Shown piece by piece: positions 50,494 through 57,060 of a stretch of DNA of 64,000 nt. A program made the position numbers and the translations under genes. Source of the stretch: Thermanaerosceptrum fracticalcis (GTDB lineage Bacteria > Bacillota > Peptococcia > DRI-13); the NCBI RefSeq assembly GCF_000746025.2, contig NZ_CP045798.1, forward strand, positions 2,737,001-2,801,000. Direction: 5' to 3'. The notes beneath the pieces are model-generated. The model did no database searches and was not told where the DNA came from. It saw only the letters and a list, made by a program, of their open reading frames with translations. How positions within the stretch are numbered: position 1 is the first letter of the stretch; the number at the start of each line of letters is the position of its first letter.

Positions 50494-50909
50494 ATTCCGG
50501 TAGCCATTGCTGCCAAATAAGAAAAAATTACAAGGGACGGCTCTTCATTCGGGAGACCGTCCCCCAGTTTATACAGGAGTGACAGTTTCCGATACCGGCC
50601 TAAACATGGAGCCGTCCCAGGCCGGGGTTGTTTCAATATAGCCTAAAGTATCGGCACCAAAGAGGCCAATTACCCTTTGCAAGGCAAGAAGGCTATAACG
50701 CCCTTTTATGTTGCTTTCCAAAGGATAGTTGAAAACTGGTTGTAGTACCAAAAGTGGTTTTGTGAAATCCTGTAGCCCCTGCTACACCTACAACTGGAAA
50801 TTAATGTCGCCAAACTTGGGATTTAATATACTTTTATATTATAAGGGATTAAAATAAGATTAGTATAAGCGTTTAATAAATTAAGAATAGGGAGTTGACT
50901 CAAGACAGC
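50494..50909. other. Terminator and minus-strand coding remnant after the aco operon
   Basis: GGGACGG pairs with CCGTCCC across a 16-base loop (50534-50563); its T tract is poor. On the minus strand 50569-50751 stays open for about 60 codons (FNYPLESNIKGRYSLLALQR, GLFGADTLGYIETTPAWDGS) and looks like the C-terminal end of a lost gene I cannot name. 50752-50894 is AT-rich and likely holds the promoter of the next gene. Confidence 0.45.
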
Positions 50910-51518
50910 ATGGGAAAAGTAATTTTATACAAATTACACAGGGATGACACCTATTTGTATAATATGTTTGGCGACTACACTTATCTGACCGGAGGTTATT
51001 ATAAGTCATTGGATTGTGAACTATCCCAGATAAGAATTATGCCTACGACGGAAGAAGCCCTTGATGCTTATGTTGTTCCTTTGGCCATGAAGAAAGCACA
51101 GTTATCCAATCTCAAAACACCTGAATATGAAATTGTTACTGAGAAAATGATACCGCCGGTTCTGGCTTATCCAATCAATCCATTTACTTCGAAATGTGAG
51201 GTAATTATTGAAAAGGAAGATGTGGAGAAAAAATTGAAAAAGCTTACAATGAACGGTAAATATGCTGTCATCTGCCAGAAATTGCCCTCCGATTACAGGA
51301 TTGACGTGGTCCGCTGCATTTTAGGGCTAACTCTGGAACAGGAATATAAAGAGTTTGCCATGTCTATTTTTGAGACCTTTCATCTGCCGCTCATGAAAAT
51401 TAGGATAATTGTTACGGTCGATGAGTATTTGTTTTCCGCTATTGAACCGCTGCCTTATGATGAATTGACTTTGAAAGAAAAGAAGATTATTGAGGAGATG
51501 GGGACATGGCAAAGATAG
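50910..51518 (+). CDS. RimK-like ATP-grasp N-terminal (RLAN) domain protein
   Basis: 202 residues. It resembles the RLAN domain that normally forms the N-terminal half of single-chain RimK-family proteins: GKVILYKLHRDDTYLYNMFGDYTYLTGGYYKS near the start, SQIRIMPTTEEALDAY, then a long middle part and the end MKIRIIVTVDEYLFSAIEPLPYDELT. Here it is a separate gene that overlaps the ATP-grasp gene by 13 bases, which implies coupled translation and a complex. ATG at 50910 has no strong ribosome site; a TTG at 50895 abuts GGGAG too closely. Confidence 0.7.
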   Translation: MGKVILYKLHRDDTYLYNMFGDYTYLTGGYYKSLDCELSQIRIMPTTEEALDAYVVPLAMKKAQLSNLKTPEYEIVTEKMIPPVLAYPINPFTSKCEVIIEKEDVEKKLKKLTMNGKYAVICQKLPSDYRIDVVRCILGLTLEQEYKEFAMSIFETFHLPLMKIRIIVTVDEYLFSAIEPLPYDELTLKEKKIIEEMGTWQR

Positions 51519-52387
51519 CAATTTTTACGGAACGTTATACCATCAGAAGCTCGGTGGAACTAGCGGCACTCACAAATTACAGGATGGCTGCCTTTGAGCT
51601 GGGACATCAGCTTGATTTCCTGTTTCGTAATGAATTAAAGTACTTGAGCAATTATGATGCTGTTTTTATCAGGGCTCTGACCGACCCTCTCAATACTAGC
51701 TATGTTGTGGCCCGGCTGGCTCAGATGCAGGGCCAGCGTGTAATTGACGACCCTGAAAGCATACGAATCTGCTGTGACAAAGTAAATATGTACAAACGCC
51801 TGCTGCAGCATCAAATACCGATGCCCGAGACAATATTTTTAGATAACAAAGAGGTTAGCAAGGAAAACGCCTGCGAATTGTTTGAAACCTTGGGAATCCC
51901 CCTGGTTTTGAAGGCTCCAAATAGCAGTTTTTCTCATTATGTGGAAAAGGTTAATTCTCCTGATGAATTCGTCAAGTTCGGAAAGAAATTTTTGCGGAGA
52001 GCGGATCGGATTATTGTCCAGCAGTATATTCCCAGTGATTATGACTGGCGTGTTATCATCCTGGACGGGAAAGTATTGGCCGTGGCTAAATACATATTTG
52101 CCCAGAATACATGGCGGACCATGGACCGGGCGGAAGACGGACAGTTGGCTAAGGTAGTCGGTGTGGACGCAAGCAAAGCCAATCCAGCCCTGTTGCAGGT
52201 TGCTGTTAATGCGACCAGGACAATAGGCCGGAGTTTATATGGCGTCGATGTTAAAGAGGTTGACGGCGAATATTACGTCATCGAAGTAAATGATAATCCT
52301 AATATCGACGCTGGAAATGAAGACCAGGCCAGCCCGGAAATTTATAAAAATATTGTACGGTATCTAGCGGGTGAAGAATTTGAATAA
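51506..52387 (+). CDS. RimK-family ATP-grasp ligase
   Basis: 293 residues. ATP-grasp core: DDPESIRICCDKVNMYKRLLQHQIPMPETIFL, LGIPLVLKAPNSSFSHYVEKV (ATP-binding Lys), IIVQQYIPSDYDWRVIILDGKVLAVAKYI, and the metal-binding EVDGEYYVIEVNDNPNIDAGNEDQ. Enzymes of this type join a carboxylate to an amine through an acyl phosphate, often adding Glu or other amino acids to peptides or small molecules. Substrate unknown. GAGGAG before ATG lies within the RLAN gene. Confidence 0.88.
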   Translation: MAKIAIFTERYTIRSSVELAALTNYRMAAFELGHQLDFLFRNELKYLSNYDAVFIRALTDPLNTSYVVARLAQMQGQRVIDDPESIRICCDKVNMYKRLLQHQIPMPETIFLDNKEVSKENACELFETLGIPLVLKAPNSSFSHYVEKVNSPDEFVKFGKKFLRRADRIIVQQYIPSDYDWRVIILDGKVLAVAKYIFAQNTWRTMDRAEDGQLAKVVGVDASKANPALLQVAVNATRTIGRSLYGVDVKEVDGEYYVIEVNDNPNIDAGNEDQASPEIYKNIVRYLAGEEFE

Positions 52388-52850
52388 GCTTTCATCACGG
52401 AAAGCCGTGGCGGCAGATTTAAGGCAATTGATGGAAATAGAAAAAAAGTGTTTTCCGGAATGTGATGTTTTTTCGCGGCGTAATATGCGACGGATGGTAA
52501 ATAATCCAAAATGTTCAATCTTACTTGATGTTTTAGAATATGAGCAAGAGGTTGTTGGTTATGCTGTTTACCTGACGAGACGCAACAGCCAGACGATAAG
52601 GCTATATTCCCTGTGTCTTCTACCATGCTACACCGGGCAGGGCTTAACCAGAAAATATTTGGAGGAACGGTTAAAAGATTTTGCCTTAAGATTTTCGAAG
52701 GTAATCTTAGAAGTACGCCAGTCCAATAAGGCGGCAATCAGGCTTTACCACGGGTTGGGTTTTGAGCTTGGACAGATTCTTGAAGGATATTATGCTGACG
52801 GGGAAAGGGGTTATCGCATGGTTAAGAATCTGAAGCCGAAATTACCATGA
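52371..52850 (+). CDS. GNAT family N-acetyltransferase
   Basis: 159 residues. GNAT pattern: RKAVAADLRQLMEIEKKCFPECDVFS, the acetyl-CoA loop LLPCYTGQGLTRKYLEERL (Q-x-G-x form) and LEVRQSNKAAIRLYHGLGFELGQILEGYYADGERGYRM, a RimI-like end. The GTG start at 52371 overlaps the ATP-grasp gene by 17 bases. Operonic with it, so it may acetylate the ligase product or a cognate substrate. Confidence 0.88.
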   Translation: MKNLNKLSSRKAVAADLRQLMEIEKKCFPECDVFSRRNMRRMVNNPKCSILLDVLEYEQEVVGYAVYLTRRNSQTIRLYSLCLLPCYTGQGLTRKYLEERLKDFALRFSKVILEVRQSNKAAIRLYHGLGFELGQILEGYYADGERGYRMVKNLKPKLP

Positions 52851-53212: not shown

Positions 53213-54052
53213 CTACTTATAAACCTTATTTAAAAGGGTCGGCTTACGTAAATCCTGACATTCACAGCCACATTCCCCAAAGGTCAGTTCCTTCATGGCC
53301 TGACCCAGAATTTTCCCAATTCTGGGGGCATCTTGGTGAAAAATCTCTGCCAGTTCCCGGTGTTCCCAGGCTTTGACAATACCTTCTCCATAATTCACTA
53401 CGGTATAAAGTCCAGCAAAACAAGCCCCAATTTCTCTCGCCAGATATACCTCAGGACAGAGGCTCTGCCCCACGATATCGCCACCCCACTGTTTAAGCAT
53501 CTGACATTCGCTGGGGCTCTCAAAATGCCGTCCATCGGTAACTACATAGACCCCGCGAGAAAAGACTCGTTTCAAGGGATAGGCTTCCGCTGTCCGGTAT
53601 AAGAGGTCGCGGAGTTGGGGACACAGGGGTTGACGCATAATCAAAAGCTGGTTAGTTCCCAGATCCACATCCTTCCGTAAAGAAAAATCAATATAATCAT
53701 GGGGGATAACAATGTCTCGAGGGTCTAAGAGGTGGTTGAGACTCCCCACGCCCCCTTCACTGATGACCTTCTTGACACCGGCCTCCCGCAAGACCCAGAA
53801 GACCTGACGTGAGGCTTGGGCCCGGGTAACACCTGAACGCCAGCCGTGCATATGACAGCTTAATACCTGATAATCTTCCTTCCCTCTCACCTGAAAGAGG
53901 GTGAAGGGCGGGCTTTCTCCAAAGGGTGTTTTATAAACTAGTCCTTCCTCTAAAAACTCTAGGGATTCGTCTTGGAGGTCCTGGGGAAAATTCATGCCCA
54001 GGGTTCCCGATCCCCCGATGAATCCTAATAACGCCGGTGGTACACTTACCAT
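53213..54052 (-). CDS. MTAP-like purine nucleoside phosphorylase in the menaquinone operon
   Basis: 279 residues. Phosphorylase family hallmarks: LLGFIGGSGTLGMNF, SEGGVGSLNHLLDPRDIVIPHDYIDFS, TDGRHFESPSECQMLKQWGGDIVGQSLCPEVYLAREIGACFAGL. Methylthioadenosine phosphorylases have the same architecture. Position after mqnE, mqnA and mqnC suggests it replaces MqnB by removing adenine from aminodeoxyfutalosine (or recycles methylthioadenosine/5'-deoxyadenosine). The C-terminus has an unusual CGCECQ cysteine cluster. ATG at 54052 after AGGTG; a GTG nine bases earlier overlaps mqnC. Confidence 0.82.
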   Translation of the reverse strand: MVSVPPALLGFIGGSGTLGMNFPQDLQDESLEFLEEGLVYKTPFGESPPFTLFQVRGKEDYQVLSCHMHGWRSGVTRAQASRQVFWVLREAGVKKVISEGGVGSLNHLLDPRDIVIPHDYIDFSLRKDVDLGTNQLLIMRQPLCPQLRDLLYRTAEAYPLKRVFSRGVYVVTDGRHFESPSECQMLKQWGGDIVGQSLCPEVYLAREIGACFAGLYTVVNYGEGIVKAWEHRELAEIFHQDAPRIGKILGQAMKELTFGECGCECQDLRKPTLLNKVYK

Positions 54053-54064
54053 ACATCTCACCTA

Positions 54065-55093
54065 CTAATAGACTTTTAGAATGTTATAGAGGGTATCCCT
54101 TAAAGCGGGCCTTTTGCCCGTATCTTTAATGAGTTGAATCATGCTTTCTTTCTCCATGGTATAGGCCGTACCAGCGGCTTTTACCACGTTTTCTTCCAGC
54201 ATAATGCTCCCTAAGTCGTTAGCGCCAAAATAAATGGACATTTGTCCCATCTGGGGTCCTTGCGTAACCCAGGAACCTTGGATGGTTTTAAAGTTATCCA
54301 AAAAGAGTCTGCTCACAGCCAGGAAACGCAAATAGCGGATGGAAGAAATCTTTTTGCCCTCTAAGGCCGTATGAGCCGGTTGAAAAGTCCAGGGAATAAA
54401 TGCCCTGAAGCCTCCCGTTTTATCCTGTAAATCACGAATTTTCTCCAAATGTTCTAAGAGTTCTTCTTCCGTCTCTATACTACCCATCATCATGGTGGCC
54501 GTAGATTCCATGCCTATTTTATGGGCTTCTTCCATAATTTCCAGCCAGCGATTACTGGATATTTTTCTGGGACTGACGGTTTGTCTGACTCTATCCACCA
54601 GAACCTCAGCCCCGCCGCCTGGTACAGAATCCAGCCCCAGCTCTTTTAGTCTAAGAAGAGTTTCTTTGATGCTGAGGCCTTCCAGTTTGGCGATATGATC
54701 TATCTCCGGTGGAGACAGGGAGTGGATGGTCACAGAAAAACGTTCCTTGATTTTGGAAAAAACCTGAGCAAAATATTTCAGTCCCAGAGAAGGATGGAGT
54801 CCCCCTTGCAGCATCACCTGGGTAGCACCCATCTCCTGAGCTTCTTTCACCTTTTCACAGATTTCCTCTACAGTAAGTACATATCCTTCAATATTACCTT
54901 CTTCACGGTAAAAAGCACAAAACTTGCACTGAACCTGGCAGATGTTTGTATAATTAATATTTCTATCCACCACAAAGGTAATATATCCTTGGGGATGGAT
55001 TTTATCTCTCATGGCACAGGCAATTTCCGCTAATTCCAAAGTATCAGCTTGTTGTAAGAGTTTTAAGGCCTCTTTTTTTGTTAGGCGAGCCAT
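54065..55093 (-). CDS. mqnC: Cyclic dehypoxanthinyl futalosine synthase (radical SAM)
   Basis: 342 residues. Radical SAM motif CQVQCKFCAFYR after DRNINYTNI, then EGYVLTVEEI, TQVMLQGGLHPSLGL and PGGGAEVLVDRVRQTVSPRK, all typical of MqnC rather than MqnE. Cyclises dehypoxanthine futalosine in the futalosine route to menaquinone. Directly abuts mqnA (one base between). Confidence 0.93.
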   Translation of the reverse strand: MARLTKKEALKLLQQADTLELAEIACAMRDKIHPQGYITFVVDRNINYTNICQVQCKFCAFYREEGNIEGYVLTVEEICEKVKEAQEMGATQVMLQGGLHPSLGLKYFAQVFSKIKERFSVTIHSLSPPEIDHIAKLEGLSIKETLLRLKELGLDSVPGGGAEVLVDRVRQTVSPRKISSNRWLEIMEEAHKIGMESTATMMMGSIETEEELLEHLEKIRDLQDKTGGFRAFIPWTFQPAHTALEGKKISSIRYLRFLAVSRLFLDNFKTIQGSWVTQGPQMGQMSIYFGANDLGSIMLEENVVKAAGTAYTMEKESMIQLIKDTGKRPALRDTLYNILKVY

Positions 55094-55927
55094 TTATTTC
55101 ACCTCGATAAAATTAAGCTGGTGGATAGGCTTGATAATACCCTGTTTCGCTAAACACTCATAGTAACTTAAGAGGCCTTTTTTGTGTTCTTCATCAAAGG
55201 AAAACTCTAGTCCGCGGAAATAGTGAGTAAGAAACTCCGGTGTATATATTTCCCAACGCGCTGCGTCCTTGACGATCTCTTCCAAATGCTTGATACTGTA
55301 TTGCATAGAGGAAATAAAGGCTTCGTATACCCTTTGCACGAGATGGGGTTTTTCCTGGGCAAATTCCTTGCGTACAGCCCAGACGGCATAGACCATCTTG
55401 TGGCCGGTAAATTCCTTCCACTCTACACCCAGGTCATAAAAATATAAACCAGGGGGCTTTTGATAAAAAGCCCGGAGGGCATGGTCGCCGATTAAAAGAG
55501 CTGCCTCTCCCTCCAAAAGCATGGAAGGTAAATCAGGAGGACAGACAAAATATTCACAGCGAAAATTATATTTTTGCTGTATGATAATTTTCAAGAGATT
55601 TACTGAGGTAGCCGAAGTGTTAGTTAAAGCAATGCGTTTCCCGTCCAGTTCTGTGATAGGTACTTGACTCACCAGGTAGATGCTGTTTACAGGCCCGTCG
55701 GCACTTACGGTTAAATCAGGTAAAAGAAGTAAATCATGATGATTCTGAGCATATTCAATAGAGGAAATAGGGCTAATATCTAATTCCCGGGCAAGCAATT
55801 TACGGTTTAATTCCGTGGGTGTGCCCTTGATTAATTCAATATCTAAAAGTATTTGCTGATTCTTGACTAATCCGTAATAAAGAGGCAGACAATTTAAAAA
55901 CTGGATGTGTCCAACCCTGGGCCGCAT
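55094..55927 (-). CDS. mqnA: Chorismate dehydratase
   Basis: 277 residues, periplasmic-binding-like fold without signal peptide. Pattern: RVGHIQFLNCLPLYYGL, LDISPISSIEYAQN, TSATSVNLLKIII, LIGDHAL. Removes water from chorismate to give 3-enolpyruvylbenzoate, the first futalosine-pathway step. The stop and start codons of its neighbours touch, so it is tightly coupled to mqnE upstream. Confidence 0.92.
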   Translation of the reverse strand: MRPRVGHIQFLNCLPLYYGLVKNQQILLDIELIKGTPTELNRKLLARELDISPISSIEYAQNHHDLLLLPDLTVSADGPVNSIYLVSQVPITELDGKRIALTNTSATSVNLLKIIIQQKYNFRCEYFVCPPDLPSMLLEGEAALLIGDHALRAFYQKPPGLYFYDLGVEWKEFTGHKMVYAVWAVRKEFAQEKPHLVQRVYEAFISSMQYSIKHLEEIVKDAARWEIYTPEFLTHYFRGLEFSFDEEHKKGLLSYYECLAKQGIIKPIHQLNFIEVK

Positions 55928-57010
55928 CTATTTATCCTCCTCATAAACCTTAATCACATTGTAGAGGGTATCTCTTTCTACGGGAATATACCCCATCTCC
56001 TTAATGCGGGCCAAGAGTTCTTCTTTCGTAATGCCCTGGGCCGTTTTAGCACCGGCAGCATGTGTTATTTTCTCTTCTACTACAGTTCCGTCCAGGTCAT
56101 CCACACCAAACTCCAGGGAAAGTTGGGCCAAGGATATACCCAGCATTATCCAGAAAGCCTTGATATGAGCAAAATTGTCTAAGATAAGACGAGAAATGGT
56201 AATTACCTTTAAATCCTCTACGGCTGTGGTCCTTTTAAGATGGGCTAATTCTGTATTTTCAGGGTGGAAAGGAAGAGGAATAAAGGATTGGAATCCCCCC
56301 GTCCTATCCTGCAGTTCACGTAATTTGAGGAGATGATCGATGCGTTCTTCCCATGTCTCCACATGACCGTACAGCATCGTCGCATTAGTTTTAAATCCCA
56401 GTTCATGTGCAGTCTTCATAACCTCCAGCCAGCGCTCTCCCGAGGCTTTTTTAGGGCAAAGGTCTTGCCGTATACGAGAACTGAATACTTCTGCCCCTCC
56501 ACCGGGTAGGGATCCCAGACCTGCTTCTTTTAAGAGACTTAGGACTTCGCGAATAGTTTTCCCGGAAATTTGTGCAAAATAGTCTATTTCCACAGCAGTA
56601 AAAGCCTGTAGGTGAAGATGGGGAAAGGTTTTATGCAAGGTCTTAATCACATCATAATAATATTCAAAGGGGAGAGTAGGATGAAGGGCGCTAACAATGT
56701 GTAGTTCCGTAATGTTATCGGGTATAGATTCATAGACCCTTTTGAGCACGTCTTCCATAGACATAACATAGGCGCCTTTAGCATCCTTATCCCGACCGAA
56801 AGCGCAAAATTTACATTTGGAGACACAGACATTGGTCAGGTTAATATGGCGATTGACATTAAAATAGACGTATTTCCCTGTTTTTTGCCTTTTTATCCAA
56901 CGGGCTAAACGCCCCAGAAACAAGAGGTCATTACATTTTACTAAAGTTAAGGCATCTTCCTGGGTCAGCCTTTCCCCTCGGTAAACTTTTTCTTCAATAG
57001 CTTTTAACAT
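55928..57010 (-). CDS. mqnE: Aminodeoxyfutalosine synthase (radical SAM)
   Basis: 360 residues. Radical SAM motif CVSKCKFCAFGRD after NVNRHINLTNV, then KGAYVMSMEDVLKRVYE, HIVSALHPTLPFEYY, LGSLPGGGAEVFSSRIRQDLCPKKASGERWLEV and GHVETWEERIDHLLKLRELQDRTGGFQSFIPLPFHPENT, all diagnostic of MqnE. Joins enolpyruvylbenzoate to the adenosyl group of SAM. ATG at 57010 after AAAGGTG; GTG at 57031 is an alternative. First gene of the mqn operon. Confidence 0.93.
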   Translation of the reverse strand: MLKAIEEKVYRGERLTQEDALTLVKCNDLLFLGRLARWIKRQKTGKYVYFNVNRHINLTNVCVSKCKFCAFGRDKDAKGAYVMSMEDVLKRVYESIPDNITELHIVSALHPTLPFEYYYDVIKTLHKTFPHLHLQAFTAVEIDYFAQISGKTIREVLSLLKEAGLGSLPGGGAEVFSSRIRQDLCPKKASGERWLEVMKTAHELGFKTNATMLYGHVETWEERIDHLLKLRELQDRTGGFQSFIPLPFHPENTELAHLKRTTAVEDLKVITISRLILDNFAHIKAFWIMLGISLAQLSLEFGVDDLDGTVVEEKITHAAGAKTAQGITKEELLARIKEMGYIPVERDTLYNVIKVYEEDK

Positions 57011-57060
57011 TTCTTCGACACCTTTCTCCACAAAATTACTAGTAAGATATTCGTGAGAAG

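Follow-up and report, generated by a model that had tools for sequence, protein, structure and literature searches.

Three overlapping genes of Thermanaerosceptrum fracticalcis, encoding an RLAN protein, an ATP-grasp protein and a GNAT acetyltransferase, raise the question of what such a cassette makes and what the RLAN protein contributes to it. They lie in a window of 64,000 nucleotides, which is the whole stretch of DNA analysed here. An initial annotation had read them as genes expressed together, whose ligase and acetyltransferase could build and cap an amide, and had taken the RLAN and the ATP-grasp as two halves that are normally fused and are separated here. The overlaps of 13 and 17 nucleotides between the three open reading frames are as that annotation gave them (Table 1). 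The RLAN start was placed at the ATG at 50910, with an in-frame TTG at 50895 lying directly on a purine run, and the GNAT start at the GTG at 52371, from which an in-frame TTG at 52380 would shorten the second overlap to 8 nucleotides. Within the RLAN gene, the GAGGAG lies 8 nucleotides before the ATG of the ATP-grasp gene, which is the usual layout of coupled re-initiation. A programmed frameshift joining the two products was considered, the overlap being in the -1 frame; no slippery heptamer was seen there, and this reading was rejected since the Shine-Dalgarno-like site before the ATG is the simpler explanation.

Table 1. Position of the RLAN/ATP-grasp/GNAT cassette and its elements within the window
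Feature	Position	Strand	Evidence
RLAN protein, 202 aa, predicted degenerate (inactive) ATP-grasp fold	50910..51518	+	PF14401, 50.8 bits (cut-off 25); AlphaFold2 model from 44 aligned RLANs, pLDDT 93.8; Z 13.0 to 5i47; catalytic positions replaced
Central RLAN block (~residues 62-115), ATP-grasp lid-like, absent from fused RLANs	51092..51254 (approximate limits)	+	Split/fused alignment; profile alignment to ATP-grasp residues 60-180
Shine-Dalgarno-like GAGGAG inside RLAN and conserved 13-nt overlap, ATGGCAAAGATAG	51485..51518	+	Sequence; 13 nt exact in 34/46 loci
LysX/RimK-like ATP-grasp ligase, complete, 293 aa	51506..52387	+	RimK PF08443, 56.3 bits (cut-off 21); 43-relative alignment; AlphaFold2 model, pLDDT 91.4; LysX 3vpd, Z 28.5
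GNAT N-acetyltransferase, RimI/Ard1 type, 159 aa	52371..52850	+	Acetyltransf_1 PF00583, 50.9 bits (cut-off 20.7); TIGR01575 below cut-off; nearest structures; alignment

The gene upstream encodes a dihydrolipoyl dehydrogenase and ends 416 nucleotides before the RLAN ATG. Downstream, a convergent row of genes on the minus strand (53213-57031) encodes an MTAP-like nucleoside phosphorylase, MqnC, a menaquinone-biosynthesis protein and an MqnE-like protein; it is a futalosine-pathway menaquinone cluster, in which the phosphorylase possibly provides the nucleosidase step. These flanking genes are unlinked to the trio elsewhere, except in the near-identical genome behind loci L004 and L010. Counts of candidate promoters and terminators dedicated to the trio were not above those in shuffled sequences.

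The initial annotation had advised a search for the trio in other genomes, and it is indeed found there. A scan of assembled genomes, one per species, returned 46 related loci. By label they fall in Bacillota, Deinococcota (Trueperaceae), Planctomycetota, Zixibacteria, Gemmatimonadota, Calditrichota, Bipolaricaulota, Ignavibacteriota and Pseudomonadota; most are metagenome bins, for which such assignments may be in error. The RLAN is a separate gene directly 5' of the ATP-grasp gene at every one of the 46 loci, and at none is it fused before the ATP-grasp domain. The two genes overlap, as called, by exactly 13 nucleotides in 34 loci, and the same geometry is present in L015, where the RLAN frame is broken, and in L055, where the start was called late, which brings the count to 36/46. 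In L046 the overlap is 16 nucleotides. Nine loci have lost it, of which eight carry the label Planctomycetota and the ninth, L053, is unlabelled and branches with these. In L015 (9362-10013; likewise L008, G255) the RLAN is split into two overlapping frames through sequencing error, frameshift or decay, and the ATP-grasp and GNAT genes are intact. Consistent absence of the GNAT from orthologous loci had been named as grounds for giving up the cassette; it adjoins the pair in 44 of the 46, on the same strand in 32 and convergently in 12 (Trueperaceae and kin). It is missing beside the pair in L011, where 4 kb downstream were checked, and in L028, so acetylation may be dispensable. Because the set is conserved in loci from many phyla, the trio is not a chance arrangement, and is a real conserved system of at least eight bacterial phyla.

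Clustering of the open reading frames around the 46 loci gave clade-level synteny (Trueperaceae, Planctomycetota) as the only conservation outside the trio, with no trio-specific neighbour across phyla. A link to the spore coat was considered and rejected, since CotJ-like genes occur upstream in L002 and L014 only: in one Clostridia bin (L002:15-1258, the same as L014) the trio follows CotJA/B/C-like spore-coat genes, an arrangement not seen at the other loci. Evolutionary distances of RLAN and ATP-grasp correlate at 0.93 and those of either with the GNAT at 0.66-0.67, values that shared ancestry alone inflates in such mirror-tree comparisons. The distribution of the system is patchy, with 5 of 60 near-relative genomes and approximately 1% of 398 genomes across the phylum carrying it.

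The ATP-grasp protein had been taken for a half, and in this the initial annotation was mistaken. The gene includes its own pre-ATP-grasp domain, and its AlphaFold2 model aligns end to end with LysX (3vpd), ArgX and RimK (Z 26-28.5 for the group, 26-27 for RimK). The residues K92, K136, R182, D248, E260 and N262, among them the conserved lysine pair and the Mg ligands (D248, E260, N262), are invariant in the alignment of 43 relatives. The protein is thus predicted, from its sequence, to be a live, amide-bond-forming ligase. Although it shares the full-length fold and the ATP/Mg residues of these alpha-amino-acid ligases, it falls below the cut-offs for the RimK family of alpha-L-glutamate ligases (TIGR00768; 88.6 bits against 143.4) and for LysX (TIGR02144; 79 bits against 275.6), and unlike them is accompanied by an RLAN and a GNAT. 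With LysX and ArgX as its top structural matches, the enzyme might be expected to carry out a similar step on an amino-group carrier protein of the LysW type; the low LysX_arch score, the lack of any match to LysW (TIGR01206) in the window's genome and the absence of a conserved gene for a small carrier next to the trio make this very improbable. ATP-grasp proteins of the same family, without an RLAN, are also carried by phages on viral contigs (L066:4827-5762, also L067; L068:4908-5879), in L066 between terminase-like and portal-like genes.

The RLAN protein poses a different problem. It and all 44 aligned relatives match PF14401, none of the 44 matches any ATP-grasp model in Pfam, and a sequence search with it against solved structures returned no match. 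Its AlphaFold2 model nevertheless has the ATP-grasp fold. The best Foldseek match of the model is ArgX (E value 2.1e-7), and with VIA-align, where a Z of 7-8 is typical for models that lack relatives, the best 50 listed matches are all enzymes of the ATP-grasp fold, the top one being 5i47, a RimK-domain ATP-grasp (Z 13.0 over 186 residues). Some 181-191 of the 202 residues were aligned with members of the LysX/ArgX/RimK group. When the RLAN and ATP-grasp models are compared, the elements follow in the same order and are often of equal length, the helices pairing as 64-74/28-38, 83-90/47-54, 92-101/56-65 and 152-163/102-113. Profile-profile comparison of the RLAN with its own ATP-grasp partner gave P 6.7e-4, and P 2.3e-5 with the fused sequences added and the register unchanged; this register matches the predicted secondary structure, and a control comparison with the GNAT profile gave P 0.76. 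At the equivalents of K92, K136, R182, D248, E260 and N262 the RLAN has V, A, D, R, A and E, respectively, the last three positions being mapped by the order of secondary-structure elements and a shared hairpin turn rather than by an inspected superposition. In 43/44 sequences an Arg or Lys occupies the position that corresponds to the Mg ligand D248. The residues which bind ATP and Mg are therefore not kept, and the structural model predicts that the RLAN has an ATP-grasp fold of its own, in degenerate form. It is not half of an enzyme whose other half is the ATP-grasp, as the initial annotation supposed, since it is predicted to be an ATP-grasp in its own right and the protein encoded next to it is complete. 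Our literature search found no paper naming PF14401, no described function or fold of an RLAN, and no paper on inactive or degenerate ATP-grasp domains.

The initial annotation had noted the separation of the two genes as a departure from the usual fusion. Fused RLAN-ATP-grasp proteins are found in records of Legionella, Azospirillum, Tistrella, Pseudomonas and Aeromonas, and one Bacillota genome (G174) encodes GNAT, RLAN and ATP-grasp as a single open reading frame of 660 residues. In the tree of ATP-grasp sequences, inferred by a quick method and with long branches flagged, the split forms group together (SH-aLRT 100) apart from the fused proteins, at the end of a long stem, and one change between the fused and split states is needed. 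Because the split forms make up one clade, the split state is, on this sequence comparison, old and common to the clade, and does not reflect a fission in the genome of the window. Alignment of split and fused forms indicates that the fused RLANs are without approximately 50 central residues, which are part of the ATP-grasp-like fold. The RLAN of the window is the fuller form, and the missing block may be the reason that the relation to ATP-grasp was not seen from the Pfam model.

The nearest of the fused systems are on plasmids of Azospirillum and Tistrella, where a fused "RimK family" protein is partnered by a GNAT-DUF3335 protein, giving the same three domains together with a C39-like one; in loci L059 and L060 the fused RLAN-ATP-grasp gene directly adjoins the one for GNAT-C39. 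They differ from the window in joining RLAN and ATP-grasp in a single chain, with an RLAN that lacks the block of ~50 residues, whereas here the genes are separate, the RLAN is longer and the genome holds no DUF3335. Another ligase-rich RLAN operon is present on a plasmid of Legionella adelaidensis (L057:41-3232), in which a fused RLAN-ATP-grasp gene is followed by overlapping genes of the glutamate-cysteine ligase family and for an N-formylglutamate amidohydrolase.

For the third protein, the nearest solved structures are N-alpha-acetyltransferases (Ard1/Naa10/RimI), and RimI/Ard1 (Naa10) are its closest sequence relatives. In RimI, a Glu/Tyr pair is catalytic. The corresponding E114 and Y126 of the GNAT, 12 residues apart as in RimI, are invariant in the alignment, and the acetyl-CoA loop of the window's protein is slightly degenerate (TGQGLT). 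It differs from RimI in scoring below the TIGR01575 cut-off (65.7 bits against 86.4) and in that a canonical RimI is encoded separately elsewhere in the window's genome. In 18 of the 46 loci the GNAT continues into a C39-like domain, DUF3335 (PF11814), which is often found fused to GNAT domains (PMC10318531). Mapped on the ATP-grasp tree this trait needs at least six changes, so that, from the sequences, the association has been gained or lost repeatedly. The observation of the initial annotation that no C39-type peptidase gene is adjacent holds here, where DUF3335 has no match anywhere in the genome; it does not extend to the 18 sister loci.

A type of predicted amide-ligase system combining RLAN, RimK and GNAT-C39 was reportedly recognized by Iyer et al. 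in 2009. The best reading of the cassette is as a variant of this known RLAN/RimK/GNAT type, in which the C39-like domain is variably present. The set of domains was thus already known; what appears to be new is an RLAN that is both split off and of full length, and the view of it as a dead ATP-grasp.

The RimK likeness and the C39-like domain bear on what such a system would act upon. RimK adds amino acids to ribosomal protein S6. By analogy, the ATP-grasp might extend a protein recognized by the RLAN with amino acids, either at its C-terminus or on a side chain, and the GNAT and C39-like domain would cap this tag or take it off. The structures closest to the ATP-grasp include that of RimK, the C39-like (papain-like) domain on the GNAT in 18 loci fits the logic of a writer and an eraser, and a linked precursor gene is lacking, as expected for a housekeeping target. 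Moreover, RimK and RimB are a described precedent of a ligase/protease pair (PMC12239564). The patchy distribution would be odd for a housekeeping target, however, and the window's genome offers no other RimK-family protein above cut-off for comparison. Protein tagging is the main rival to the explanation given below, and we consider it unlikely.

Peptide processing was considered as well, C39-like peptidases being typical of it. In a graspetide-like system for ribosomally synthesized and modified peptides, the RLAN would bind a short precursor, into which the ATP-grasp would introduce lactam or lactone linkages and which the GNAT would acetylate; PsnB, a graspetide ligase, is among the Foldseek matches of the RLAN model. 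The initial annotation had suggested looking for conserved short open reading frames near the trio, and none were found among those linked to the locus in 94 flanks. The short frames close to the trio of the window, and those of L005, match none from these flanks of related loci, and those which match among Trueperaceae track conserved neighbouring genes; a ribosomal precursor peptide is therefore unlikely. In addition, sequence and fold group the ligase with LysX and RimK, and the C39-like domain belongs to DUF3335; clustering of the open reading frames around the 46 loci showed no conserved transporter next to that domain. A peptide product of this kind is quite improbable.

We lean slightly towards a different explanation, in which a dead/live pair of ATP-grasp proteins of the LysX/RimK type forms an amide bond and the GNAT, which resembles RimI/Ard1, places an acetyl group on an amino group of either substrate or product. 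The simplest reading of the initial annotation, a co-translated and conserved cassette for amide bond formation and N-acetylation, is supported to this extent by the sequences. Like LysX, ArgX and RimK, the ATP-grasp would phosphorylate a carboxylate with ATP/Mg and then link it to an amino acid by the latter's amino group; this amino acid is probably glutamate or one of comparable acidity. We infer that the RLAN, as a dead relative, pairs with the live enzyme, both being made at one site through overlapping translation; such pairing is supported by the occurrence of the two as one polypeptide in Proteobacteria and of all three domains in the single frame of G174. By analogy with other dead/live enzyme pairs, the RLAN would hold the acceptor or activate the ligase. 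Given its build, the GNAT would act on substrate or product by acetylating an alpha-amino group. What results would be a dipeptide, an oligopeptide or an amino-acid conjugate that carries an N-acetyl group, or else a protein with a capped extension, and the C39-like domain, where present, would trim this product or reverse its formation.

Ngg may serve as a precedent for the pairing of acetylation with ligation: in the synthesis of NAGGN it acetylates glutamine and forms a peptide bond to a second glutamine, so that acetyltransferase and ATP-grasp chemistry together yield an N-acetyl dipeptide (PMC8070244). The cassette differs in that TIGR03103 (Ngg) is not among the families listed for either window protein and in that it has no AsnO-like partner. 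The best score to TIGR03103 in the genome (191 bits against a cut-off of 569) belongs to another locus outside the window, ~43 kb downstream of the trio (G000:C1:2832063-2833013), where a frame of 908 residues with ATP-grasp similarity perhaps encodes a cyanophycin synthetase.

A wider proposal is tentative, and one we lean slightly against: all RLAN domains would be degenerate ATP-grasps, of which the split, full-length RLAN would be a revealing intermediate, and RLAN and ATP-grasp would form an obligate dead/live heterodimeric ligase. Together with the GNAT, this ligase would yield an amide-linked, N-acetylated product, either a metabolite or a protein tag not described so far, across eight or more phyla.

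As a dead ATP-grasp, the RLAN would acquire a testable role, what has been called an "N-terminal domain" becoming a member of a dead/live enzyme pair, and its travelling with ATP-grasp proteins would be explained. Since the cassette is compact, conserved in distant phyla, without other conserved partners and small enough to be expressed whole, its product can be sought directly.
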